IMG/VR virus record: IMGVR_UViG_3300037155_000011
Span: 1 to 29,176 of that record
Length of the DNA stretch: 29,176 bases
Direction: 5' to 3' (one strand)
Source: a virus
Within the stretch, counting starts at the first letter, position 1; every line of letters begins with the position of its first letter. Made by a program: the position numbers and the translations under genes. Of the stretch, positions 17,842 to 29,176 are shown one piece after another. The notes below the pieces were generated by a model. That model was given only the letters and a program-made list of their open reading frames with translations, made no database searches and had not been told where the DNA came from.

Positions 17842-19041
17842 ATGACTCGATGGCTCCTAGTAATTTTTCTCGCAATCCCTGCATGGGCTCAAGTGCCAGT
17901 CGCGCCGATTGTCCAGCCCCACGTGACGTTCGTAAACGCCGCAGGCGGGCCTTGCGCGGGCTGTACGTTGGCAACCTATGTCGCGGGCACCACGACGCCC
18001 CTAGCGACGTATGTGGACGCTGGCGGGATATCGGTGAATACGAACCCAATCGTCATGGACGCGGCCGGCGGGGCAAATATCTGGCTCGCCAGCAGTTCCT
18101 ACAAACTCATCCTCAAGACCGCATTCGGAGCGACCATCTGGACAGTGGATCAGGTCAAAGGCGGCGGGGGCTTGGGAGGCGTTTGCGGGCCTGCAGGGGC
18201 AGTCCAGGTAGCGAACAGCGGCGTCAATGGTCTGACTTGTGATTCGTCCATCACAGTCAACACGACAAATCATACATTGAATGTCGGGACACTGCCTTCC
18301 AGCCATGTGTCCATCGGCGCGTTGGGAACGCCTACCGCCTGGGTATTCGATACCACGACTGCGGCCACCGCGCTTGCATCTCTAGGCGGTGGAGTGGTCA
18401 ACGCTGGGGCGATCAACCAATTGGCCTACTATGCCGAGGATGGAGAGATTCTTAGTGGCACTTTTGCTATCCCCAGCGGCACCACAGCCACAACCCAAAG
18501 CCCAAGCGATAGCAGCACGAAGGTGGCGACAACCGCATACGTGGCGGCACCTGGAATCGTCAACCCGACCAGTGTCCAGATAGCTTCCGGCACGGCTATG
18601 ACGGCCAATCAAGGAACCGGCGTCAAAGTACAGCACTCGACTGGCACCACGACCACCGACAACTGCGCGAAGTTTGATGCGGCTGGAAACACGGTGGACG
18701 CCGGCGCCCCTTGTGCGATTTCGGTAACTCTGGTGACAGGATCAGAGATTGTTGGATCTCGCGCGTTCGGTGCAACCTACCAAAACCTGACAGGCTATCC
18801 AATTTTAGTAAGCGGCAATGGACAGGCGGCGGCGGGCGGTTCAACGGCTGCGCTGACTTGTGGAGTTGGCCCTAGTTCGCCATCGGAAAATGTGTACTCA
18901 AATGGTTGGGGTGCTACTACGGCAGGAGGCTTTGAAGGCTTCTCCTGCCCAGTCCCCGCAAATTCTTATTATCGGATTGATGTTTCCGGCGACATCGGCA
19001 TTGGCGGAAGCTCGCACTGGCATGAAACGCAGGTTCAGTAA
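17842..19041 (+). CDS. Tail-fibre-like protein with Sec signal peptide, 399 aa
   Basis: AAGGA at 17829-17833 precedes ATG 17842. Residues 1-16 (MTRWLLVIFLAIPAWA) form a signal peptide with A-x-A before QVPVAP. Residues 26-104 match a domain common in phage fibres, with FVNAAGGPCAGCTLATYVAG, then TTTPLATYVDAGG and NPIVMDAAGGANIWL. A second fibre signature, SPSDSSTKVATTAYVAAP, is at about 218-236. The C-terminus (residues 320-399) is a beta-rich head with a Cys pair (LTCGVG ... FSCPVP). Several other close Cys pairs (PCAGC, VCGPAG ... LTCDSS) suggest disulfides, which fits export but is strange for a protein assembled in the cytoplasm. It is the first of five consecutive exported-looking genes. 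Confidence 0.75.
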   Translation: MTRWLLVIFLAIPAWAQVPVAPIVQPHVTFVNAAGGPCAGCTLATYVAGTTTPLATYVDAGGISVNTNPIVMDAAGGANIWLASSSYKLILKTAFGATIWTVDQVKGGGGLGGVCGPAGAVQVANSGVNGLTCDSSITVNTTNHTLNVGTLPSSHVSIGALGTPTAWVFDTTTAATALASLGGGVVNAGAINQLAYYAEDGEILSGTFAIPSGTTATTQSPSDSSTKVATTAYVAAPGIVNPTSVQIASGTAMTANQGTGVKVQHSTGTTTTDNCAKFDAAGNTVDAGAPCAISVTLVTGSEIVGSRAFGATYQNLTGYPILVSGNGQAAAGGSTAALTCGVGPSSPSENVYSNGWGATTAGGFEGFSCPVPANSYYRIDVSGDIGIGGSSHWHETQVQ

Positions 19042-19053
19042 GTGGAGAACAGG

Positions 19054-21177
19054 ATGAACAAATTCATATTCGCGGTATTTCTGCTATTCGTCCCTTCTCT
19101 TGGTGCCCAAGTGCAGATCGGGAAGGGTGTGCAGATAGGCGGCCTTAGTGCTATTGCCGATCCTGCCAACTTGAATGGGTTTCTCTATGTAAATCAATGG
19201 TGTACGACACCCGGAACTTTGGATGATACCTGTTTTTCTAACGCCATCGCTAACGTGGTAGCGCATGGTCCGGTGGGAAATAGCAGTCGCAAGATGGGCG
19301 AACTTGTTGTTTCTCCGGGCGTCTATACATTCAACAACACTGTGACGGTTCCCTTAGGCATCAATATCTCTATTCAGGGAGCGCAGGATAGCCTTTGGGG
19401 CTCAGTCATCAAGGCGGGATCGTCCCATCCCAACCTCTTTACGGTGCTGGCTGATTCAGTCACGATCCAGAACATCACATTCATCGGGGACGTGGGCGAA
19501 GACGCGATCGTGCTCGGATCTTCGACTAACGCACTCTACGACACGCACATCAATTGGTGTTGGTTCAACTCCTTCTCCAGGGCAATTCACATCATTAACG
19601 GCGGTGGACTCGATCTCTCTCACAACACGTTTGAGTACAATACGTTTGGCATTGCTTCCATCTATTCGAGCGGGGATGTGCGGGCGAATGACATCATCGC
19701 TACAGACCTGCGGGGCTACAGAAACTCGAATGGAGCCGTAAACCTAACCGGCGACACCACCGCCGCGAACTATGGCAATAATCAGTTTTCCGGCATATTC
19801 GATTACAACGGTGGGTCGGGCTATCCGCAGATCACGCTTTACGGCGTGACTGACACCCAGGTCTCGGGAAACTTCAATAACGGCTATCAGGACGATCTAC
19901 TAGTAGCGGGAGTGTCCAGAAATATCCTCGTTGGCCCTATTGTCGCCAACAACTCTGGACGTAACACGATTGCGGCCAACAGTGTGACGGGTTTGACCGT
20001 CGCCAACGTGTCGGCTCATAACACCAACGTCACGAGTGCTGCGGGAATCACGGCTGTTGTCAACGCGACCAACATCATCCTACTGACAGTCACGGGCGTT
20101 ACTTCTAATGGCACAGGGCTTGCGGCCTATGGCATCTACGTCGATGCGGCCTCAACTCTCGTTGACGTTTATGGAAACCAACTTTATGCCCAGGTCACGG
20201 CTGCTTATGACGTGCTATCTGCCACATCTACCACAGGCGGAACTAACGTCATGAATTATCTTACTTTAGAGAATGATGCAACTTCGGGAGACACTACCAT
20301 CGGCGTTTTTGGGCAAATCAATGTCACAAACCCGAAACAGCTATATTTGAAAATGTCTCCCGCCACAAACACGTTGAGCCTACAGGGTTCTCAGAGTGGC
20401 GTTGGCTACAACCAGACTCTAGCTCTGAATCCTCTCGGCGGACCAGTTACATCGGGAGGTTTGTTCGGCGCAGCGGCAGGAGTCAACCTTTCGGGAGCAG
20501 ATGCTCCACTAGAGTTTGCTGGGGACCCTGGAACGAGCGGACAGGTTCCTATCTCAGGCGGAACGGGCGGAACTCCACACTGGGGTGCGGGCGGTAGCGG
20601 TATCTCTGGCCTGACGGCTGGATTCATCCCTCTGGCTGGGTCGGGGACGACCATCACCGCCAACTCGCCTATGGACTATGGCGTGACCACAGCAAACGTG
20701 ATCACCTCAACCAAACCGATTGCAATTACGGGCACAACGCATGGCTTCACAATCGCGGCTGGCACGGCGGCGACGGGCGCGGCCGGAAGCGTGGTTTATG
20801 CCTCTGACTCAACCAACGGCTATGGCGAGATCAACGAGAACAATACCGGACTGTCGCGTCTCTGCACGGCGACGAATGGCATATGCGATAGTGGGGGAAT
20901 CTCGAATGTCACCATCACGACCGGAACCGGAGCAGTAAGTGCGACCTGCGCCTCTAACTCGCTTTCCAGTGCTGTAACGATGACAGGGCTTGCAACTACG
21001 AATACTTTGACGTTCACGCCCTCGACAGATGTTTCAAGCGTCACTGGATGGGATACGGGGGAATTGTTTATCGTCCCCGTGCTGGGAAGTGGGAGCTTTA
21101 CGTGGAGGCTTTGCACTGCCAACCCAAGCGGGACAACGCCGGGGGGGTCCGTCACTTGGAACGCGAGCGCAAAATGA
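19054..21177 (+). CDS. Exported right-handed beta-helix protein, tailspike-like, 707 aa
   Basis: I choose ATG 19054 over the GTG at 19042, because GGAG at 19044-19047 would lie 6 nt before 19054 and the signal peptide then begins cleanly (MNKFIFAVFLLFVPSLGA before QVQIG). Residues 30-350 look like a pectate-lyase-type right-handed beta-helix: GELVVSPGVYTFNNTVTVPL, then SIQGAQDSLWG, then ladders such as VTIQNITFIGD, DLSHNTFEYNTFG and TLYGVTDTQVSGNFN. Such folds bind or cut polysaccharide in phage tailspikes. The C-terminal 250 residues are Gly/Thr-rich beta repeats, and a Cys pair lies at CTATNGIC. No catalytic triad can be assigned. Its stop overlaps the next start by 4 nt. Confidence 0.75.
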   Translation: MNKFIFAVFLLFVPSLGAQVQIGKGVQIGGLSAIADPANLNGFLYVNQWCTTPGTLDDTCFSNAIANVVAHGPVGNSSRKMGELVVSPGVYTFNNTVTVPLGINISIQGAQDSLWGSVIKAGSSHPNLFTVLADSVTIQNITFIGDVGEDAIVLGSSTNALYDTHINWCWFNSFSRAIHIINGGGLDLSHNTFEYNTFGIASIYSSGDVRANDIIATDLRGYRNSNGAVNLTGDTTAANYGNNQFSGIFDYNGGSGYPQITLYGVTDTQVSGNFNNGYQDDLLVAGVSRNILVGPIVANNSGRNTIAANSVTGLTVANVSAHNTNVTSAAGITAVVNATNIILLTVTGVTSNGTGLAAYGIYVDAASTLVDVYGNQLYAQVTAAYDVLSATSTTGGTNVMNYLTLENDATSGDTTIGVFGQINVTNPKQLYLKMSPATNTLSLQGSQSGVGYNQTLALNPLGGPVTSGGLFGAAAGVNLSGADAPLEFAGDPGTSGQVPISGGTGGTPHWGAGGSGISGLTAGFIPLAGSGTTITANSPMDYGVTTANVITSTKPIAITGTTHGFTIAAGTAATGAAGSVVYASDSTNGYGEINENNTGLSRLCTATNGICDSGGISNVTITTGTGAVSATCASNSLSSAVTMTGLATTNTLTFTPSTDVSSVTGWDTGELFIVPVLGSGSFTWRLCTANPSGTTPGGSVTWNASAK

Positions 21178-21992
21178 CGAAGCGAATCCTTTGCGGTATC
21201 GTGCTTGCTGCGACTTGGCTGATGGGGGCCAAGCAGTACACGGTTGGGGCGCGCGGTTTCCATCATTCTTCGGCTGCGTCCTGTACCAACGCCGCTCCTG
21301 TCACAGCCACGTGGGATGCCCTAAGCACGTCGAACACCTGCGGGACTTCTGGCGGATCAGTTTGCAGCAACGGCCTCTATGCCTACGAAGCTTATGATGC
21401 GGTCTACCCCGGATACACGCAGGGTAGCGGATTGCAGCCAACGTACAATACGAACATTATCAACACACAGCCTGCGTGGATCTTCGGGGGCGCTCAATTC
21501 TTTCAGTTGCAAAGTCCAGCCGGTACAAATAACCCAATTCCTAGTTCGATCACGCAGTACACGTTTGTTGCCTACGGAATTGACTTCTCATCTTTCCCCA
21601 CACAGGCTCCGATCATTGGTGGATTGGGGAACAATTTATTGTGGCAGATTGAAAGCAACGTCCAGAAATTGCTCAGTGCTGGGGTAGCCCAGATTGGGGC
21701 AGGTACGGACACTATCAGCACGAGCACGCCATACACTCTCGCTTTCACCTACGATACAGGAGCGGCACAATTGACTTTCTACAAATGCAGTGGCGGCTCC
21801 TGTGTGCAGGACGGAAGCGGATCGACTACCAACACGCCGCCAACATCGCCAATCTACTTTCTAGGGAAAGATGGATATTCGACGCACTATCTAAATGCCT
21901 CTGTGCCTGAAATCGACTTCTACCAAGGGATTTATACCAGCGGCAATCTGAGTTCGGTTGCCACATACTCGCAAAGTTGCTACGGAATATAA
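21174..21992 (+). CDS. Exported LamG/concanavalin-like protein, 272 aa
   Basis: ATG 21174 overlaps the preceding stop (ATGA). A longer in-frame start at 21048 is rejected because it runs through the beta-helix gene. Residues 1-19 (MTKRILCGIVLAATWLMGA) form a signal peptide. The mature N-terminus is Cys-rich (SCTNAAP ... NTCGTSGG ... VCSNG). From about residue 85 the pattern WIFGGAQFFQLQSPAG, TFVAYGIDFSSFP, PYTLAFTYDTGAAQLTFYKC resembles a LamG-like jelly roll, a carbohydrate-binding fold common in phage and secreted proteins. A second close Cys pair (YKCSGGSC) again suggests disulfides. It belongs to the exported fibre block. Confidence 0.68.
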   Translation: MTKRILCGIVLAATWLMGAKQYTVGARGFHHSSAASCTNAAPVTATWDALSTSNTCGTSGGSVCSNGLYAYEAYDAVYPGYTQGSGLQPTYNTNIINTQPAWIFGGAQFFQLQSPAGTNNPIPSSITQYTFVAYGIDFSSFPTQAPIIGGLGNNLLWQIESNVQKLLSAGVAQIGAGTDTISTSTPYTLAFTYDTGAAQLTFYKCSGGSCVQDGSGSTTNTPPTSPIYFLGKDGYSTHYLNASVPEIDFYQGIYTSGNLSSVATYSQSCYGI

Positions 21993-21994
21993 CT

Positions 21995-22435
21995 ATGAAA
22001 CGAATCATCCTCATCCCGCTTCTCTTCGCCTCGCTTGCCCACGCGCAGACATGGGTCAAGGTGGCCAACGAAGGCGACTCTGTTACCGCTATAGCCACGG
22101 TGCGCTACGGCGCGGCTCAGGGGGCCACAGCGACCGCAGGCACCCCTTGTGCGACCGTGGGCGGCTGCTGGGTGCAGATATCGGTCGCAGGACCGTTCAC
22201 TGCCAATAACGCATTCTTCAAGAAAGACCCAATCAATGGCACGGCGAAAGAGTTGGACGTGCTGGAGACGGCATCGGTGCAGACGGTGACGGTAAACGGT
22301 AAGCCGGCAACGGTGTCGGCGCTCCCGCTTCCTCCGCCTCCGCCATCCATCAGTACACTCACCTTTAGCGCAACAATCAACTTCATGGGAACCAACGTGA
22401 CGGCAACCTGCACGGCTCCGGTGGTGAAGCAGTGA
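21995..22435 (+). CDS. Small exported RYGA-type (lectin-like) domain protein, 146 aa
   Basis: I use ATG 21995, which gives a clean signal peptide (MKRIILIPLLFASLAHA before QTWVKV); an in-frame ATG 18 nt upstream lies inside the previous gene. Residues 18-95 contain VKVANEGDSVTAIATVRYGA and then ANNAFFKKDPINGTAKELDV. This 'NEG..T....VRYGA ... N..F..DP..G..K..' pattern recurs, from memory, as a small accessory domain of secreted bacterial carbohydrate-active enzymes. A cysteine pair lies at PCATVGGC. A polyproline linker (LPPPPPS) leads to a short beta segment with a lone Cys near the end. A carbohydrate-binding role is inferred. It overlaps the following gene by GTGA. Confidence 0.6.
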   Translation: MKRIILIPLLFASLAHAQTWVKVANEGDSVTAIATVRYGAAQGATATAGTPCATVGGCWVQISVAGPFTANNAFFKKDPINGTAKELDVLETASVQTVTVNGKPATVSALPLPPPPPSISTLTFSATINFMGTNVTATCTAPVVKQ

Positions 22436-24912
22436 AGCGCCTTATCCAACTCGCCACAAGATACCCAGCGCTCGTGTCTTCAAAAACTATCAAGCAGGGA
22501 ATAAGGGCGCTGGGTGCCCTGCTGTTCGCGCTCGGCATGTGTGCGGGCGCGGCCTCAGCGACTACGTTTTACGTCCAGCCCCTCGGAGGCCCGCGCTACG
22601 ATGTCACCTACAATCCTACTGGCGACTCGTGCAGTGGACAGTCGAACGGAAACATGGTGGTGAGCGGTGGCCCAAATCAGTCGTGCGCGTTTAGCGATCC
22701 TCGCTATGTCTGGGCCAACGGCAGCGCAGCGGGCTTGATGGCGATGTCGGGCGGCGACACGCTGATACTTTCCGCCACGTACCCCGCAGGGCAGACGGCG
22801 TGGCGCTTCTCCGGACGCGCTGGTCCGGGAGCGCCCGATCTCTTCAATAACTACCAAGGCGTGAGCGGCGGTGATCCGTACACCGACTACAACATAAACT
22901 TTCCGGCTGGCAGTTCCGGCGCTCACACCCGCATCCTTGGAGCAAACTACGCAAGCTGCGGGGCGGGGCAGAAGACCAACATCTTCGGCGGCTTTGCGGC
23001 ACTGGCCGTCATCAATCTTCAACAAACCAGCTATGTAGATGTTCAATGCCTGGACATCACCGATCACAACAGTTGCATCAAGCACGGCACCGCGGGCCTG
23101 CCTTCCGTGTGTCAGAATGTTGTGCCTTACTCTGATTATGCCAATTCCGGAATTATGACTGTGACCAATGTAGGGTCGGCCGGATCGCAGTTGCCAAGCA
23201 ATATCATTTTGCAAGACCTCGACATCCACGGATTTCCCGACTCAGGTATATCGGGAGCAATCGGAGGCGCGTTTGCCTTGACTCGCGTAACTTCTAACCG
23301 CAATGGCTTCGCGGGGTGGAACTTTGATTTTGGTTCGGCGGGTAACGGCTTCCCAAACAATCCAGCAGCCACAATCAACGCGCAGTACGTGACGATGGAT
23401 TGGAACGGCTGCAACGAGGAGTATCCGATTGTTGATCCAATCCCGGTCACGTACTGCTATTCGATCATCAATCAGGGCTTTGGCGACGCGTGGAGCGGGC
23501 AGGACTCCGATCTTGCATCTATGACCTGTAATCACTGCGAGATGGCTTACAACGTAAAGGATGCGTTTTTTGGCCCCCACACGGCTATAGCCAGCGTCAC
23601 TATTACCAACTCGGCTGCGTTCAACAATGGCGGACAAACATGGAAAGCGAACATGGGCTACTCCGGCAGTTGGCTGATGCAGAATACATTGACGAATGAC
23701 AACTGTAGACGTTTAGCCCAGCCAGTGACGGGTGCCCCCTCGACCTTCAACACGCAGATAAACGGCGCTGACTACTGTCGCGCGGACGGGGCAGCACTCG
23801 CCGTTGTGTGGCCTGCGACCGGCTCTTTTGAAATTGACGACAGCACTTTTGTTGCAGCCTCGTCCAACGTATCCATTGACTTCACTTGCTGGAATACCTT
23901 CGCCACTGTCTCGGTTGGTTCTGGGGGAACGGGCTACACGAACGGAGACCTTCTTTATCCTGGAGGGACGCAGGCGGTAGTTCAAGTCACCTCCACTAGT
24001 TCGGGAGTGATTACCGGAGTCAGTCTCATATCGGGGGGACAGGTAACGAATGCTTCCGTCCCATTCACTGAGACCTATGTTTTCGGGGGAACCGGAACTG
24101 GCGCGCAGATCACGGTCAACACCGTCACCCCAAACAGTTGTGGTGGCGGGCCTCGCGTCATGCGCAACAACAATTTCATCGGCTACACAAACACCGATAA
24201 CCCCTCATGGAATAGTTCACAGATTGTTCTGTTTTGCTATTCAGGATGCAATGGCAACCCTGGAACCACGGACGATACAATGTGGACGCTCCGCAGCAAT
24301 AACAACTTCTACGGCTATGCCTCGGGGGGAGTTCACGGAGCCTGTACCTACGCGGGGGAGGTGTGCGCCACTCCGCTGATGACGGTTCAGCCTTCCCAAA
24401 CGTGGACCAATGAGACGCAACTGGACCCGTTTACACCGTCGTTGGCATCCACAAGCAACGCCTTCTATCCCACGTCTAGCAGTCCGCTACGGGGGGCAGG
24501 CGTCACCATCGCTGGCATCACGACGGACTACTACGGAGTAAGCCGGACAAGCCCTCCAGACATCGGTGGGGTACAGTACTCCAGCAGCACTCCAGGTGCC
24601 TACGATCCGACCTTCAGCCCAGTCGCAGGAACCTACGTGGGCACCCAGAATGTCACGCTCTCGACCGCAACCAGTGGATGCAGCGGCTACATGGTATGGA
24701 ACACGACCAACGCGCAGAGCGCTGGCAATCTGACGGGCACCAGCAGCACGAATCCACTCAGCGTGGCATCGTCTGAGACGGTGTATGCCCAAGTGCAGAG
24801 TTGCCCCGGCTACCTCAACAGCGGCGTCGGATCGGCGGCTTACACTATCACGGCGCCAAGCGGAGGAACAAAGATCAGCGGTGCGGTGATAGTGGGCGGA
24901 AAGGTACAATAA
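22432..24912 (+). CDS. Exported beta-helix protein with chitobiase C-terminal-like domain, 826 aa
   Basis: GTG 22432 overlaps the preceding stop. The N-terminal region is unusually long (about 43 residues): a basic, amphipathic stretch (KRLIQLATRYPALVSSKTIK) before the hydrophobic core ALGALLFALGMCAGAASA, cleaved before TTFYVQ. Residues 44-700 form a right-handed beta-helix with ladder segments (IILQDLDIHGFPDSGIS, VTITNSAAFNNGGQTWK) that ends in DYYGVSRTSPPDIGGVQYSS, the usual cap of such secreted proteins. Residues about 723-810 (TFSPVAGTYVGTQNVTLSTA ... VYAQVQSCPGYLNSG) match the CHB_HEX_C_1-type chitobiase C-terminal domain. There are about 20 cysteines, many in close pairs. This is probably a cell-surface or tail polysaccharide-binding protein; a lyase activity is possible but no active site is assigned. 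Confidence 0.72.
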   Translation: MKRLIQLATRYPALVSSKTIKQGIRALGALLFALGMCAGAASATTFYVQPLGGPRYDVTYNPTGDSCSGQSNGNMVVSGGPNQSCAFSDPRYVWANGSAAGLMAMSGGDTLILSATYPAGQTAWRFSGRAGPGAPDLFNNYQGVSGGDPYTDYNINFPAGSSGAHTRILGANYASCGAGQKTNIFGGFAALAVINLQQTSYVDVQCLDITDHNSCIKHGTAGLPSVCQNVVPYSDYANSGIMTVTNVGSAGSQLPSNIILQDLDIHGFPDSGISGAIGGAFALTRVTSNRNGFAGWNFDFGSAGNGFPNNPAATINAQYVTMDWNGCNEEYPIVDPIPVTYCYSIINQGFGDAWSGQDSDLASMTCNHCEMAYNVKDAFFGPHTAIASVTITNSAAFNNGGQTWKANMGYSGSWLMQNTLTNDNCRRLAQPVTGAPSTFNTQINGADYCRADGAALAVVWPATGSFEIDDSTFVAASSNVSIDFTCWNTFATVSVGSGGTGYTNGDLLYPGGTQAVVQVTSTSSGVITGVSLISGGQVTNASVPFTETYVFGGTGTGAQITVNTVTPNSCGGGPRVMRNNNFIGYTNTDNPSWNSSQIVLFCYSGCNGNPGTTDDTMWTLRSNNNFYGYASGGVHGACTYAGEVCATPLMTVQPSQTWTNETQLDPFTPSLASTSNAFYPTSSSPLRGAGVTIAGITTDYYGVSRTSPPDIGGVQYSSSTPGAYDPTFSPVAGTYVGTQNVTLSTATSGCSGYMVWNTTNAQSAGNLTGTSSTNPLSVASSETVYAQVQSCPGYLNSGVGSAAYTITAPSGGTKISGAVIVGGKVQ

Positions 24913-24997
24913 GTGAGTCGTTTGCAGCAAAGCCCTAGTGCAGTAATAGCGAGCCGGAGACGGTGGGCGCAGTCAAGTGGGCCGAGGGATCAACTAA

Positions 24998-25690
24998 ATG
25001 AGCGTCGACACTACTACGCACGAGAGCAGTTCGCGCACTGACCCGACCAAGCTGACAACCGACCAGCTAAATAGGGAAATCGAAACACTCAAGGCACTGC
25101 TTACCGTAAATATAGACAATCTCCATGAGGATATAGTTGCGCTGTTCAACCAGCAGAAAGCCGTGCCGGATCGGATAGTTCAAGAGGTAAACCATCTTAG
25201 AGAGTTAACGGAAGCTCGTTTGGCAGAAGCGGCGGTCGCAACTAAGCTATTGCAGGCCAGTACAGATAGAACACCAGCACAGGTGGATGAAAAGATCAAG
25301 GCGTTGGCAGACGTACACAACGAAAAGTTTTCCTCTATCCAAAATCAATTCAGAGAGCGCGATGTGCGCGCAGACCAAACATCTAAACAAGATAAGGTCG
25401 CTATCGACGCTGCACTGCAAGCACAGAAGGAAGCCGTGGGTGAGCAGAACAAATCATCGGCGCTGGCTATTGCGAAGAGTGAGGCGTCGACTGACAAGCG
25501 AATCGACCAGCTAGGCGGGTTGATACTCAGTACCGCGAAGAATGTGGACGATAAGTTCTCCGACATGAAGGACCGAGTAGCCTTGATTGAGGGCCGGGGA
25601 ACGGGAGCAAAGGATAGCTGGGGCTACCTTGTCGGATTTGTGGGGATAATTGCCGCCCTTGTTGCTGTATTCATGGCGATGCACAGATGA
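24998..25690 (+). CDS. Coiled-coil protein with C-terminal membrane anchor, 230 aa
   Basis: Residues 18-195 are almost entirely predicted helix and rich in Ala, Glu, Lys, Gln. The segment RTPAQVDEKIKALADVHNEKF followed by IQNQFRERDVRADQ is a strongly conserved motif in phage proteins of unknown function, often beside lysis genes. The C-terminus is a single hydrophobic span (GYLVGFVGIIAALVAVFMAMH, about 209-229), so the protein is tail-anchored with a long soluble N-terminal domain. GAGGGA at about 24984-24989 precedes ATG 24998. It overlaps the endolysin gene by ATGA. A spanin- or holin-like part in lysis is a reasonable inference from position. The preceding 85 bases hold no gene that I can see. 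Confidence 0.7.
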   Translation: MSVDTTTHESSSRTDPTKLTTDQLNREIETLKALLTVNIDNLHEDIVALFNQQKAVPDRIVQEVNHLRELTEARLAEAAVATKLLQASTDRTPAQVDEKIKALADVHNEKFSSIQNQFRERDVRADQTSKQDKVAIDAALQAQKEAVGEQNKSSALAIAKSEASTDKRIDQLGGLILSTAKNVDDKFSDMKDRVALIEGRGTGAKDSWGYLVGFVGIIAALVAVFMAMHR

Positions 25691-26148
25691 ACGACGCCAT
25701 CTCCAATCAGCGTCTCGCCCTCTGTATGCCTGCCTTAGTTGCGAAGGTCAATGCAGCGGCCAACCTGCTCGCTATGAATAGAGTCTATTGTCGGGTTGAC
25801 GATGCCCTGCGGACATATGCCGAGCAAGATGCTGAATTCGCTAAAGGCCCCGCATTCACCCGCGCGCGCGGAGGTTATTCCGCTCACAACTTCGGCATGG
25901 CCGTCGACTGCGTTCCCTTCCTGATTGGGACAACTGGGGCACTCGACTGGAACCCCAAGAGTGACAAGTTTCAGATGATGGTTGCGGCCATGAAAAAGAG
26001 CGGATTAGAGTGGGGCGGAGACTGGGTTCATATGCACGGAGATTTTGACCACTTCTATATCGGCCCTGCCACCCCGACAGACGCCGACCGGCAGGCGTTT
26101 GCAAAGGGCGGATTACCCGCAGTTTGGCAGTTGTACCCACAAGAATAG
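25687..26148 (+). CDS. Endolysin, peptidase M15 type
   Basis: A 153-aa enzyme predicted to cut the peptide stems of peptidoglycan at the end of infection. The metal site of the M15 (VanY/L-alanyl-D-glutamate peptidase) family is visible: SAHNFGMAVDC gives H67 and D74 (S-x-H-x-x-G-x-A-x-D), and DFDHFYIG gives the third ligand H122, with W113 before it. Around residues 85-100 (LDWNPKSDKFQMMVAAMKKSGL) is the usual helix preceding the second site. The protein lacks a signal peptide and membrane segment, so it should need a holin to reach the wall. Length and motifs fit phage endolysins of this class. It is coupled to the coiled-coil membrane protein. Confidence 0.88.
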   Translation: MNDAISNQRLALCMPALVAKVNAAANLLAMNRVYCRVDDALRTYAEQDAEFAKGPAFTRARGGYSAHNFGMAVDCVPFLIGTTGALDWNPKSDKFQMMVAAMKKSGLEWGGDWVHMHGDFDHFYIGPATPTDADRQAFAKGGLPAVWQLYPQE

Positions 26149-26165
26149 GCGTATGATGGCGGGAA

Positions 26166-26292
26166 CGGGAGTCGCAAGCCGGAGCCTCAGATGCAATTCG
26201 GACAGGGGGCTTAGTGGTTTGCCTAGTCGGGCCAGAGTTATTGCCGTTGAAAGCGGATATTCCAACGATAACTTAGTGGTCTGAGACTCCCG
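26166..26292 (+). ncRNA. Candidate structured RNA between endolysin and holin
   Basis: In the 162-nt gap after the endolysin, CGGGAGTC (26166-26173) pairs perfectly with GACTCCCG (26285-26292). Immediately inside, TCAGA (26187-26191) can pair with TCTGA (26280-26284), and AAGCC (26176-26180) can alternatively pair with GGCTT (26208-26212). A strong inner hairpin has AGTTAT (26236-26241) pairing with ATAACT (26268-26273) and CGTTG (26245-26249) pairing with CAACG (26263-26267), with a 3-nt bulge and 13-nt loop. CTTAGTGGT occurs twice (26210-26218 and 26272-26280). No good coding frame fills the gap. A regulatory or packaging-related RNA is inferred. It does not fit a tRNA. Confidence 0.45.
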
Positions 26293-26310
26293 GTAAATTT
26301 GAGGGTTCGC

Positions 26311-26616
26311 ATGGACACGATCAAGGCATGGCTGAAAGCGCACTCGTTTAGCTCCAAATCGGTTGTAACGGCGTGGCTGGCGGTAGTGTTTCTCTACGGC
26401 AACAACTCGGCTTTCCACGATTATGTGATGCACGCCTATACCTCCATCCCCCATGGGCTCCACTCCTTCGTGGTCGGAATCGTCATACCTGTCGCCATCT
26501 TCTGGCGCACGACGCACAGCACGAAGGTATCGGCCGAGATCGAGGATGGAGTTCCGGGAGTGGTCAAAGCCTCGGCATCTGCGTCCACCACTGACCTAAC
26601 CGCACCCCCGAAATAA
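26311..26616 (+). CDS. Holin-like membrane protein, 101 aa
   Basis: GAGGG at 26301-26305 precedes ATG 26311, which I prefer to an in-frame TTG 12 nt earlier. The product has two hydrophobic spans, about residues 16-32 (SVVTAWLAVVFLYG) and 51-68 (LHSFVVGIVIPVAIFW), joined by a short polar loop with His and Tyr, and then a hydrophilic Ala/Ser/Thr-rich C-terminal tail. This is the shape of a class II-like holin, and it sits just after the endolysin. Holins have little sequence conservation, so the call is by topology and neighbourhood. It could also be another small membrane protein. The structured region lies directly upstream and could control its translation. Confidence 0.6.
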   Translation: MDTIKAWLKAHSFSSKSVVTAWLAVVFLYGNNSAFHDYVMHAYTSIPHGLHSFVVGIVIPVAIFWRTTHSTKVSAEIEDGVPGVVKASASASTTDLTAPPK

Positions 26617-26628
26617 AAGGAGACCCAA

Positions 26629-26862
26629 ATGGAACATCCAATGCCCTCCAACGACCCTCAGATTGAAGCGTGGTTCACTTACCATTCTCCCAACGAAGAT
26701 CAACAGAAACGCTATGTGGAGCTTCGTGCAGCCGCGAAGAATCTAGCCTACTCAATCAAATCTTGCACGAAGCCGAGTGCTGATCAGTCAGCGGCTTATC
26801 GTCTATTGCGCGAGTGCGTGATGACCGCCAACGCATCAATCGCTCTAGAATCGAAGGAGTAG
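26629..26862 (+). CDS. Acb2/Tad1-hairpin-like protein, predicted cyclic-nucleotide sponge
   Basis: A 77-aa protein with AAAGGAG at 26616-26622, 6 nt before ATG. Residues 10-73 show the consensus I associate with the Acb2/Tad1 hairpin family: WFTYHSP (15-21), Q-x-x-x-Y (Y29), LRAAAKNLA (32-40, with K37), then a P-S-A-D turn at 49-52, and LLRECVMTANASIAL (59-73), i.e. two helices forming a hairpin. Acb2 of Pseudomonas phages and Vs.4 of T4 bind cyclic di- and trinucleotides and so block CBASS, while related proteins counter Thoeris by trapping ADP-ribose signals. Here it is placed with the lysis genes and probably expressed late, which is odd for an anti-defence protein. Family placement is from memory of the pattern. 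Confidence 0.72.
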   Translation: MEHPMPSNDPQIEAWFTYHSPNEDQQKRYVELRAAAKNLAYSIKSCTKPSADQSAAYRLLRECVMTANASIALESKE

Positions 26863-26865
26863 CCC

Positions 26866-27288
26866 ATGAAACGACTTGCACTCTGCCTGATTCTTCTCCT
26901 GCCGCTGGGATGCAGGACAGCGACAGCCCCAGCACCGCCCCTGGCACCGGGGCTCCAGGGCTACATTAGTCCAGCCGATCAGCAGATGGCTCAGATTCTC
27001 TCCGGAGCACGGACGTTTTACAACACAGTCCAGTGCGAGACGCAGACGCTGAATTGGTCGCAGGTAGCGCAAAAATGCGTGGCCGATTCGAAGATTATGC
27101 AGCCGATGATCCTCAGCACCACCGAGAAGACAGCGTTCCGCGATTTTATGGCGAGTCTGAATGCAGCCGAGACATTGCATCTGGCGTACCATAACGGGAC
27201 AGGGACGACCCAGGCCGCCGCCCAGAACGCAGTGAATACAGTTCAAGTCAAACAAGCAGCCCTCCCAGCATTGGCGGTGATAAAGTGA
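26866..27288 (+). CDS. Lipoprotein of unknown function, 140 aa
   Basis: AAGGAG at 26854-26859 is 6 nt from ATG 26866. The N-terminus MKRLALCLILLLPLGC is a lipoprotein signal with lipobox L-P-L-G-C, so C16 should be lipidated and the rest periplasmic. A Pro-rich linker follows (APAPPLAPG), then a mostly helical domain (residues 35-140) with two cysteines (VQCETQTLNW ... KCVADSK) that may pair. Position after the holin candidate makes an outer-membrane spanin subunit possible, but the domain is longer than typical and no matching inner spanin is clear. A superinfection-exclusion lipoprotein is the other possibility. Confidence 0.65.
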   Translation: MKRLALCLILLLPLGCRTATAPAPPLAPGLQGYISPADQQMAQILSGARTFYNTVQCETQTLNWSQVAQKCVADSKIMQPMILSTTEKTAFRDFMASLNAAETLHLAYHNGTGTTQAAAQNAVNTVQVKQAALPALAVIK

Positions 27289-27668
27289 CAAGCCCTATAG
27301 TCCCAACCTCTACCTTCGATTGGAAGTCTCTGCTCGGCCCTGTCGAGTTAGCTGCCAACATTGCGACTGGAATCCTCATCCCCGGCGGCGCGGCCTTTAC
27401 CCCACTCCTTGTCGGACTCGAAACCGCTATCAACCCCCTGCTTATGGCGATTGGGACTAAGCCATCGGCGAGCACTGAAGCCATGACTGCCTACGGAACC
27501 ATCATCGGCATCCTGACCACAATCAAGCAAATGCCCAGCATGCCTGCCGCAACGCTTACCAAGGTTGACGATTACGTTATCGCAGCGCAGAACGGAACAG
27601 CATCCTATCTGCAAGCGAGTCTGGGATTCGATCCAGCCAACGAAGCACAAGTCACGGCGATACTCTGA
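27285..27668 (+). CDS. Hypothetical protein, 127 aa
   Basis: GTG 27285 overlaps the lipoprotein stop by 4 nt. I do not recognise the family. Residues 14-60 (WKSLLGPVELAANIATGIL ... FTPLLVGLETAINPLLMAIG) are moderately hydrophobic and probably amphipathic helices rather than true membrane spans. The rest is helical (GIILTTIKQM type segment, KVDDYVIAAQNGTASYLQAS). There are no cysteines or metal motifs. The ending in ATCT-type spacing overlaps the start of the next small gene by one base. Function unknown; the coupling to the lipoprotein suggests joint expression, possibly at the membrane. Confidence 0.6.
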   Translation: MTSPIVPTSTFDWKSLLGPVELAANIATGILIPGGAAFTPLLVGLETAINPLLMAIGTKPSASTEAMTAYGTIIGILTTIKQMPSMPAATLTKVDDYVIAAQNGTASYLQASLGFDPANEAQVTAIL

Positions 27669-27772
27669 TGTGGAATATGTTAATTGGATTTATCCTAGGT
27701 CTATTTATGGGAGCAGGCATGGTGCTTCTATTTCTCTGGTATTTTGACCCAACGAGAGGATGCGACGGATAA
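27668..27772 (+). CDS. Single-span membrane peptide, 34 aa
   Basis: ATG 27668 shares a base with the upstream TGA, and the frame ends in TAA at 27770-27772. The product is nearly all membrane segment (MWNMLIGFILGLFMGAGMVL then LFLWYF) followed by a short polar tail DPTRGCDG. The size and topology fit a small holin, antiholin or other lysis accessory, but no family is recognised. The frame is short, but it fills the otherwise empty space exactly between two genes and is tightly coupled, which supports it. Confidence 0.5.
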   Translation: MWNMLIGFILGLFMGAGMVLLFLWYFDPTRGCDG

Positions 27773-27773
27773 C

Positions 27774-28022
27774 ATGGACTCTAGGACGCTCCAGGTGACG
27801 CCGCAACAGTTAGATGGGCTGGTAGCCTTGCTGAAGGCCCACGGACTCGTCCTAGACCCGGAAGCGGCCGCTGGTGAGGTCAAGACGGGGGGCTGGGATG
27901 TAAGCTGGACTCAAGTTCCCGGCCAAGTTACCAGCGAAATCACCATCAACCTCGTCAAACACCCCTGGCTAGAGGCGGGTGCGTTCTGGGCCAAGATTGA
28001 GAACGTGCTGAAACCGTCCTAG
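27774..28022 (+). CDS. Hypothetical protein, 82 aa
   Basis: I use ATG 27774 (MDSRTLQVTPQQL), 2 nt after the preceding stop; an in-frame TTG at 27744 would lie inside the 34-aa gene. The protein has a helix (QQLDGLVALLKAHGLVLDP), then strands GWDVSWTQV and SEITINLV, then a helix FWAKIENVL, a compact alpha-beta-beta-alpha layout with three Trp. No known family is recognised. It is the last gene of the rightward operon. Its TAG (28020-28022) overlaps the convergent stop of the minus-strand zinc-binding gene in one CTAG. Confidence 0.6.
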   Translation: MDSRTLQVTPQQLDGLVALLKAHGLVLDPEAAAGEVKTGGWDVSWTQVPGQVTSEITINLVKHPWLEAGAFWAKIENVLKPS

Positions 28023-28246
28023 CCTGCTCGCCGCGATGAAAGCTCTCTATCCGCGATTTGTCGGCCACGGGCGACCTCTTCCTCTGTCAAGGGTATGTTT
28101 GAGACGCAGAGCCAATCCATTTTATTCCACCGCCGACGATGGCATTTAGCACACAAAACAGGAGCGGCATTGTTGACGCAACGATTCAGCCATATATGCC
28201 CGCAATCCCAATACTCACAGACCCACGCTTGCGCCATCATCCTCAT
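28019..28246 (-). CDS. Small zinc-ribbon-like protein, 75 aa
   Basis: A 75-aa protein on the leftward strand with cysteines at 10, 15, 23, 32 and 35 and a His at 17. The pairing C10-x4-C15 with C32-x2-C35 (CAKC), followed by HRRRWN, resembles a zinc-ribbon found in many small phage proteins (the 'C..C ... C..C..RRW' type). The C-terminal part is a short helix (LTEEEVARGRQIADRELSSR). Such proteins often occur in replication regions and might bind DNA or protein; no function is established. Its start overlaps the upstream gene by ATGA (28243-28246) and its stop overlaps the convergent late-operon stop. Confidence 0.65.
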   Translation of the reverse strand: MRMMAQAWVCEYWDCGHIWLNRCVNNAAPVLCAKCHRRRWNKMDWLCVSNIPLTEEEVARGRQIADRELSSRRAG

Positions 28247-28728
28247 TGCTTGCCTTCCTTCTCCGCTGCCTCGTATGTAGCGAGTTTGTTCTCAGCCTCT
28301 TTACGAAATCGTGCCATAGTCTGTCCGAACTGAATAGCGCGATCACGCTCCCCACGCCACTTGTTCATTTGCTTTATAGCTGCGTCCCGTTCTGCGAGGG
28401 CGGCGGATAGCTGGAATTCGCGGTCAGCGAGGTACATCCTGATGCGGACATCTGGATCAAGACCTTCACTTCCCAAATCATCAGTCAGTTCGTGGCAACG
28501 CTTACTTAGCGGCGGCAGCTTCGCTTCCCCGGATGGCAACGAGACGGGCTGAGTCCCATTGCACACAATACATACAGTTGCTCCTACTCCGTGGGGACAA
28601 GTCAAGCCGCTTGCGGTAGCTTCGGGATGCCGTATCTGGTGCAAACCTTCCTGTAACTCTGCGTCTGTCTCATCTCCCGGCCAGGTGCCGAAGAAATTAC
28701 CAACTCCTCCGCTCGTCAGTTTGCTCAT
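28243..28728 (-). CDS. Hypothetical protein with Cys/His cluster and coiled coil, 161 aa
   Basis: The start is at 28728, where GGAGGAG (about 28734-28740) precedes ATG on the minus strand. A longer in-frame start at 28848 is rejected because it runs into the resolvase gene. Residues 44-58 (CPHGVGATVCIVCNG) give a C-x-H ... C-x-x-C cluster that could bind zinc. Residues 95-161 are charged helices (YLADREFQLSAALAERDAAI ... RAIQFGQTMARFRKEAENKL) consistent with a coiled coil. No family is recognised. It is co-oriented with the resolvase and zinc-ribbon genes, so it probably belongs to the early or middle operon. Confidence 0.6.
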   Translation of the reverse strand: MSKLTSGGVGNFFGTWPGDETDAELQEGLHQIRHPEATASGLTCPHGVGATVCIVCNGTQPVSLPSGEAKLPPLSKRCHELTDDLGSEGLDPDVRIRMYLADREFQLSAALAERDAAIKQMNKWRGERDRAIQFGQTMARFRKEAENKLATYEAAEKEGKQ

Positions 28729-28759
28729 TTCACTCCTCCATAACCTGCTGCGGGGTAGA

Positions 28760-29176
28760 CTACAGTTCGCAAACGCTAATCTCGACCCGCTCTGGAACTC
28801 CATAATGCTTGTTGGCCACCATCTCCACAATCTGCGCATCGTCGGCATAGAGGATGCCTGTCAGCGAGTCGGCGGTGGCGCGTACCAGTTTGTCCATATC
28901 GGGCTTGACGACGATCCTGGTGCGCTTCTTCGGGATGGACGCCGGCCGCGCGAAGTAGAAGTCGAATATGACCCCGACCGGCACATGCTTTGCCGCCAGC
29001 GGAGCATCCAATCCACGCTCACGCATCTCTGCCATCGCCGAATGGGTTAGCTCCTGACGATACGGCTTCATCTTGGGATTGTTGCTGGTCAGGATGGCTC
29101 TCGGCTTTGCCGCGCCTTTGCCGGGGAGTACGAAGCCTCGCATACTTCCCTGTGGCTCTGCGCGGCAATAGGTAGT
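28760..29176 (-). CDS. rusA: RusA-type Holliday junction resolvase, N-terminus outside window
   Basis: The leftward frame is open to the window edge. The residues before the first internal ATG (29143) read YCRAEPQGSMRGFVLPGKG, matching the RusA start 'G-x-P-x-P-Q-G-S-K-R', so the gene really begins upstream of base 29176. 138 residues are visible. The catalytic block is KPDMDKLVRATADSLTGI then LYADDAQIVEMVANKHYG, with the conserved acids D (in PDMDK), D (in ADSLTG) and DD (in YADDAQI) and a lysine (NKHYG), as in RusA dimers that cut four-way junctions during replication and packaging. It heads the visible part of the leftward operon, 31 nt before the next gene. Family placement is firm. Confidence 0.85.
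   Translation of the reverse strand, partial: TTYCRAEPQGSMRGFVLPGKGAAKPRAILTSNNPKMKPYRQELTHSAMAEMRERGLDAPLAAKHVPVGVIFDFYFARPASIPKKRTRIVVKPDMDKLVRATADSLTGILYADDAQIVEMVANKHYGVPERVEISVCEL

Follow-up and report, generated by a model that had tools for sequence, protein, structure and literature searches.

The gene that encodes a 77-residue protein beside the lysis genes of a soil phage raises the question of whether its product is a nucleotide sponge of the Acb2/Tad1 hairpin family and, if so, how closely it keeps to the sponges already described. The window, i.e., the whole stretch of DNA that was analyzed, is a virus record of 29,176 bases that carries P22-type genes for terminase, portal, scaffold, coat, head closure, and DNA ejection; the features discussed here are collected in Table 1. 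All the motifs quoted in the original prediction (WFTYHSP, Y29, LRAAAKNLA, PSAD, and RECVMTANASIAL) are present in the translation. AAAAGGAG, a strong Shine-Dalgarno sequence, lies 6 nt 5' of the ATG, the antisense frame across the gene holds many stops, and the G+C content is 0.509, versus 0.554 for the whole window. The open reading frame is real. It is short, and its product has no NCBIfam or PADLOC model (T4 Vs.4 likewise lacks one in NCBIfam), but a spurious frame has virtually no chance, because the protein is conserved, with relatives of 46 to 67% identity encoded at 45 IMG/VR loci, and because it carries a Pfam match above the cutoff and a Shine-Dalgarno sequence.

Table 1. Positions of the hairpin gene, its notable codons, and its neighbors in the window
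Feature	Position	Strand	Remarks
Coiled-coil-like gene	24998		Upstream of endolysin
Endolysin, M15 peptidase type	25687..26148	+	Peptidase_M15_4, PHROG endolysins
Holin candidate	26299..26616	+	Two hydrophobic stretches (two-TM) by eye
Shine-Dalgarno-like AAAGGAG	26616..26622	+	By sequence, 6 nt before hairpin-gene ATG
Acb2/Tad1-hairpin gene (PF24729)	26629..26862	+	77 aa, then stop
Tyr18 codon	26680..26682	+	Aligned with PaP2 Acb2 Tyr11, T4 Acb2 Tyr8
Arg33 codon	26725..26727	+	Aligned with PaP2 Acb2 Lys26, T4 Acb2 Lys23
Codons of second long helix (predicted residues 51-74)	26779..26850	+	ADQ..A...LREC.MTAN
Downstream gene, 140 aa	26866..27288	+	Signal sequence, lipobox-like LPLGC by eye

The original prediction had placed the protein in the Acb2/Tad1 hairpin family, and this call was right. 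PF24729 matched it with 41.7 bits (E 1.3e-10; curated cutoff, 27 bits), residues 17 to 72 aligning with profile positions 1 to 57 of 58. The same model matches T4 Vs.4 (Acb2; 71.4 bits), PaP2 p26 (66.1 bits), SBSphiJ7 Tad1 (34.2 bits), Curtobacterium phage Pippin15 gp62 (41.7 bits), and a Paenibacillus phage Heath protein (86.0 bits), as well as all 19 rows of alignment A4 when tested singly. The window protein also matches two PHROGs of unknown function, 31113 and 1454. AlphaFold2 (33 rows; mean pLDDT, 87.1; pTM, 0.73) predicted helices at residues 10 to 15, 23 to 46, and 51 to 74 and no strands. In two reports (PMC10419184, PMC12043709), the Acb2 chain is described as one short helix followed by two long antiparallel helices, and the predicted layout of the window protein is the same. 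A search of viral predicted structures (BFVD) also bore out the family call, with proteins named Acb2/Tad1 hairpin in the first four rows (probability 1.00; E 0.009 to 0.035); because such names usually derive from sequence families, this search is not independent of the sequence tests. Against the PDB, where small helical hairpins yield unspecific matches, Foldseek and VIA-align listed generic helical hairpins (best Z, 6.1) and no Acb2 chain.

To place the protein within the family, we relied on profiles that differ in membership. An intermediate profile of nine phage proteins, built without the window group and without Acb2, gave 60.0 bits for the window protein and 44.8 to 84.2 bits for the 34 family rows of alignment A1. 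The background reached at best 9.3 bits in 2040 shuffles of the window group (1944 reported) and 16.7 bits in 2659 other ORFs (1971 reported); the 16.7-bit ORF (L027/L028) is lysine-rich and was set aside. Under this profile, SBSphiJ7 Tad1 scored 19.3 bits (its 60 shuffles, ≤7.7), a Rhizobium phage protein 16.2 bits, T4 Acb2 9.9 bits, and PaP2 Acb2 0.2 bits (Acb2 shuffles, ≤6.7). An Acb2-only profile (13 proteins: those of PaP2 and T4 with their Acb2-side kin) did not recognize the window protein, giving it 2.4 bits, a score that 132 of 2040 shuffles and 54 of 2659 other ORFs equaled or exceeded; the median over the 34 family rows was 3.95. Once four Gram-positive-phage proteins were included in the Acb2 profile, the window protein scored 38.9 bits (best shuffle, 10.2). 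With hhalign, A1 and the Acb2-side alignment A3 met in the expected register with a probability of 1% and an E value of 0.057. A PDB sequence search with the window protein, one relative, and profile A1 returned no Acb2 or Tad1 chain; an A4 profile found PDB entries 8h2j, 8ixz, and 7uq2, matches that exist by construction since A4 includes PaP2 and T4 Acb2. By these comparisons, the window protein is certainly related to the Gram-positive-phage group and likely related to Tad1 and to the T4 side; its relation to PaP2 Acb2 rests on Pfam's own model. Because the Acb2-only profile fails and the link runs via Gram-positive-phage relatives, the window protein represents a distant branch of the Acb2/Tad1 hairpin family, one that has the hairpin only. 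It is ordinary in kind; databases already label its Pfam family.

In the annotated phage collection, 91 records hold relatives and none exceeds 60% identity to the window protein, the best being a protein of Tunturiibacter phage Tunturi_1 (55.7%). Together with the Gram-positive-phage relatives (Paenibacillus Heath, Lactococcus 1706, Gordonia UBSmoodge, and Mycobacterium Myrna), it shows 34 to 55% identity to the window protein in alignment A6, and all share an FxYH(S/A/K)P start, the hairpin, and an ANA(S/G)(I/V) end; in three of these five proteins, MW or MF replaces the MT of the window protein. Our literature search found no ligand tests for these five relatives and no biochemistry on the FTYHxP...ADQ...RECVMTANA branch; none of the papers searched joins Acb2 with the hairpin domain or with Acidobacteriota. 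An Acb2 is named in a 2026 announcement of Microbacterium phage Statler (PMC13348362). Curtobacterium phage proteins Pippin15 gp62, a PF24729 member like the window protein, and Eevee gp61 are labeled "cyclic nucleotide sequestering protein"; unlike the window protein, they reach 165 aa through a long C-terminal part and carry Ser where it has Tyr18 and Lys where it has Ala69. In Pippin15 (L145 1-747), two adjacent genes bear this label beside a nicotinate ribosyltransferase gene. Relatives in Paenibacillus and Brevibacillus phages, including that of Heath (L064 2992-3207, "putative phosphomannomutase"), are labeled phosphomannomutase, evidently a misannotation that has spread. In addition, a hairpin of this family lies inside a longer open frame in three genomes: at L125 820-1860 (about 290 aa when counted from the closest ATG), at L126 847-2028 (minus strand), and at the match in L127. 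In these frames, ∼200 conserved aa with no confident Pfam match of their own continue in frame after the hairpin, and the frames lie downstream of a gene that is portal-like by eye. These frames could possibly encode a two-domain sponge.

We then compared residues with those of the Acb2 proteins of PaP2 (p26, PDB 8h2j) and T4 (Vs.4, PDB 7uq2), which share the Pfam family, the short helix, and the two long antiparallel helices with the window protein. All three are hairpin-only, with 77 aa in the window protein versus 93 in PaP2 Acb2 and 88 in T4 Acb2, and all have a Tyr followed 15 residues later by a basic residue. Alignment A1 takes in 32 of the 45 IMG/VR loci; L026 was omitted, as were 12 loci whose protein duplicates that of another row. 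Because the exact peptide patterns by which these loci were drawn include ECVMTANA, the invariance of A1 at residues 62 to 69 is partly by construction; L122, found by the Pfam profile, reads EAVMTANA. Tyr18 and Arg33 both lie outside that pattern. Tyr18 is present in 33 of 34 A1 rows, the remaining row having a gap, and is one of only three invariant positions in A4 (Met1, Tyr18, and Met65); elsewhere the column holds Tyr or Phe in other Gram-positive-phage rows and Ile or Ser in Microbacterium and Curtobacterium rows. Arg33 is Arg in 34 of 34 A1 rows, and each of the 19 A6 rows has a basic residue, Arg or Lys, in this column, the Tad1 row being poorly aligned there; the PaP2 counterpart, Lys26, presumably touches the ligand. 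For T4 Acb2, one report states that Y8A disrupts cyclic-dinucleotide binding and that Phe82 stacks on the ligand (PMC12657218). The Phe82 position is Ala72 in the window protein and Ala in PaP2 as well.

On these grounds the protein is probably a nucleotide sponge, a small phage counter-defense protein of the Acb2/Tad1 hairpin family, by analogy with its characterized members, which capture the nucleotide signals that bacteria use as an alarm against phages; for the branch as a whole, the term sponge is likewise a fair inference from this likeness. Each chain would form the three predicted helices, and chains would pack into an oligomer as in Acb2, a hexamer that binds cyclic di- and trinucleotides. 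The pockets of this oligomer would tightly hold, without cleaving it, the cyclic nucleotide that a host defense cyclase produces as a signal, and with the signal captured the effector would stay off. An anti-CBASS effect and such an oligomer are suggested by the Acb2 analogy, and a cyclic di- or trinucleotide would be a more likely ligand than gcADPR.

The window protein also differs from Acb2, and the positions of PaP2 R85 and P90 and of T4 Phe82 argue against an equivalent pocket. Identity of the Acb2 rows of A6 to the window protein is 8 to 23%, Arg33 stands for Lys, and the C-terminal RA(V/I)xQP end of Acb2 is missing, the C-terminal Pro (PaP2 P90) having no counterpart. At the position of PaP2 R85, all 13 Acb2-side rows have Arg, and Tad1 has Lys, as do the Curtobacterium and Microbacterium rows, but the window protein (Ala69) and its closest kin have Ala; two other invariant Acb2-side residues, G10 and N23, correspond to Thr17 and Val30. 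The capsid relative G023 (L121/L136) has Arg at the Ala69 place and Asn at the Arg33 place. All 34 A1 rows share Asp52, Arg58, Arg61, and Asn68, the last of which lies inside a search pattern. With the second-helix basic residue lost and these four residues fixed, the FTYHxP...ADQ...RECVMTANA branch might form a sponge class of its own, made of the hairpin alone, whose rebuilt pocket would take a defense signal outside the known Acb2/Tad1 ligands, a reading that we regard as unlikely.

A second alternative concerns the genomic setting. The original prediction had described a gene embedded among lysis genes, of which the endolysin is supported by library matches; the holin is plausible by eye and had no match in library searches. 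The gene that starts 3 nt past the hairpin-gene stop codon likewise had no library match; its lipoprotein-like product may act as an outer-membrane spanin or else in exclusion. This string of holin-like and lipoprotein-like genes, the terminase or portal genes next to some relatives, and the Ala in place of the basic residue that Acb2 and Tad1 both keep would suit a protein that keeps the hairpin fold but has lost, or never had, a sponge function and serves as a late-region accessory in lysis timing, packaging, or regulation. We hold this to be improbable, because part of one machine would keep its neighbors, and those of the relatives differ. Among 100 ORFs beside 33 relatives, PHROG matches included terminase, portal, head, recombination, nucleotide metabolism, and methyltransferase families, none in more than 2 ORFs, and no lysis family was among the matches listed (25 of 86 PHROG families). 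The largest ORF clusters near relatives were shadow frames of the hairpin gene itself and were dropped as evidence. The hairpin-family gene follows the portal gene in Gordonia UBSmoodge and an HNH gene in Mycobacterium Myrna, and in Paenibacillus Heath it lies two genes after the SSB gene, with primase and polymerase nearby. Since neighbors vary in this way, the lysis setting is one of many and not a family trait.

The coat-protein relatives also argue against an accessory role: PF24729 matched in 3 of the 30 records searched (of 52 loci) and was missing from the other 27, although many of these records are fragments. In two of the relatives the hairpin gene precedes the coat gene, by about 5 kb in G024 and by about 22 kb in G023, where it lies downstream of a cell-wall-related gene (by eye). 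G007, whose coat protein is 86% identical to that of the window, has genes that by eye are, in order, spike, coiled coil, lysozyme-like, and holin-like, followed by a relative of ORF 27774, with no hairpin gene among the reading frames listed and no PF24729 match. These observations fit a hairpin gene that comes and goes as cargo. The "hitch-hiking" position that had been proposed is supported by the widely varying neighbors of the relatives; the late expression named there as the other option would follow from position only, as would expression with the lysis genes. Separately, positions 17842 to 29176 of the window (spikes, lysis, hairpin gene, and RusA) have a sharp mosaic border, with almost no tblastn relatives in loci of phages with similar coats, except for ORFs 17842 and 27774. 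No homologues of the window's lysis genes were found in the loci compared, except for a distant relative of ORF 27774 in L139.

Finally, the protein could be a Tad1-like anti-Thoeris sponge that holds gcADPR and so blocks ThsA. PF24729 covers both the window protein and Tad1 of Bacillus phage SBSphiJ7 (PDB relatives 8kbb and 7uav). In A6 the second helices resemble each other, ADQ..A...LREC.MTAN aligning with REN..A...LEEALMW.N in the common pattern (R/A)-(E/D)-x-x-x-A-x-x-x-L-x-x-x-x-M-x-x-N, and the intermediate profile scored Tad1 above all of its shuffles. However, Tad1 has 142 aa with an N-terminal β-sheet part, whereas the window protein lacks that part, is modeled as all helix, and has only 16 residues before the hairpin domain. 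Tad1 also has Lys at the column of Ala69, and Tyr18 points to Acb2, with Phe in Tad1 at a poorly aligned column. A gcADPR sponge is therefore quite improbable, and a sponge closer to Acb2 in its ligand is preferred.

As for the hosts, Tunturi_1 and one Pyrinomonadaceae MAG, the sole match among genome contigs, hint at Acidobacteriota, to which Tunturiibacter and Pyrinomonadaceae presumably belong. One genome of Acidobacteriota encodes a coat protein with 36% identity, any coat match being found in 2 of 396; these are hints of the host phylum of the window phage. The original prediction had further implied CBASS- or Thoeris-type immunity in the hosts. A sample of 297 genomes of the phylum of relative G031 was surveyed for PF24729 and, as the one defense marker, the SMODS cyclase. 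The cyclase (PF18144) matched in 24 genomes (21 above the cutoff) and PF24729 in 7 (5 above the cutoff). No genome of the 297 had both; with counts this low, the result speaks neither for nor against the implied immunity.

By itself, the window protein of this soil phage is one more member of a labeled Pfam family. From Acb2/Tad1-hairpin sponges one can learn which nucleotide signals are important in a host, and the window branch, present at dozens of sites in uncultured viral contigs, lies in sequence between Acb2 and Tad1 and is unlike both at conserved positions. With about 70 to 80 aa each, its members are a cheap test set for new ligands. If the pocket has indeed been rebuilt, such a sponge would catch a signal from unstudied defense systems of soil bacteria.
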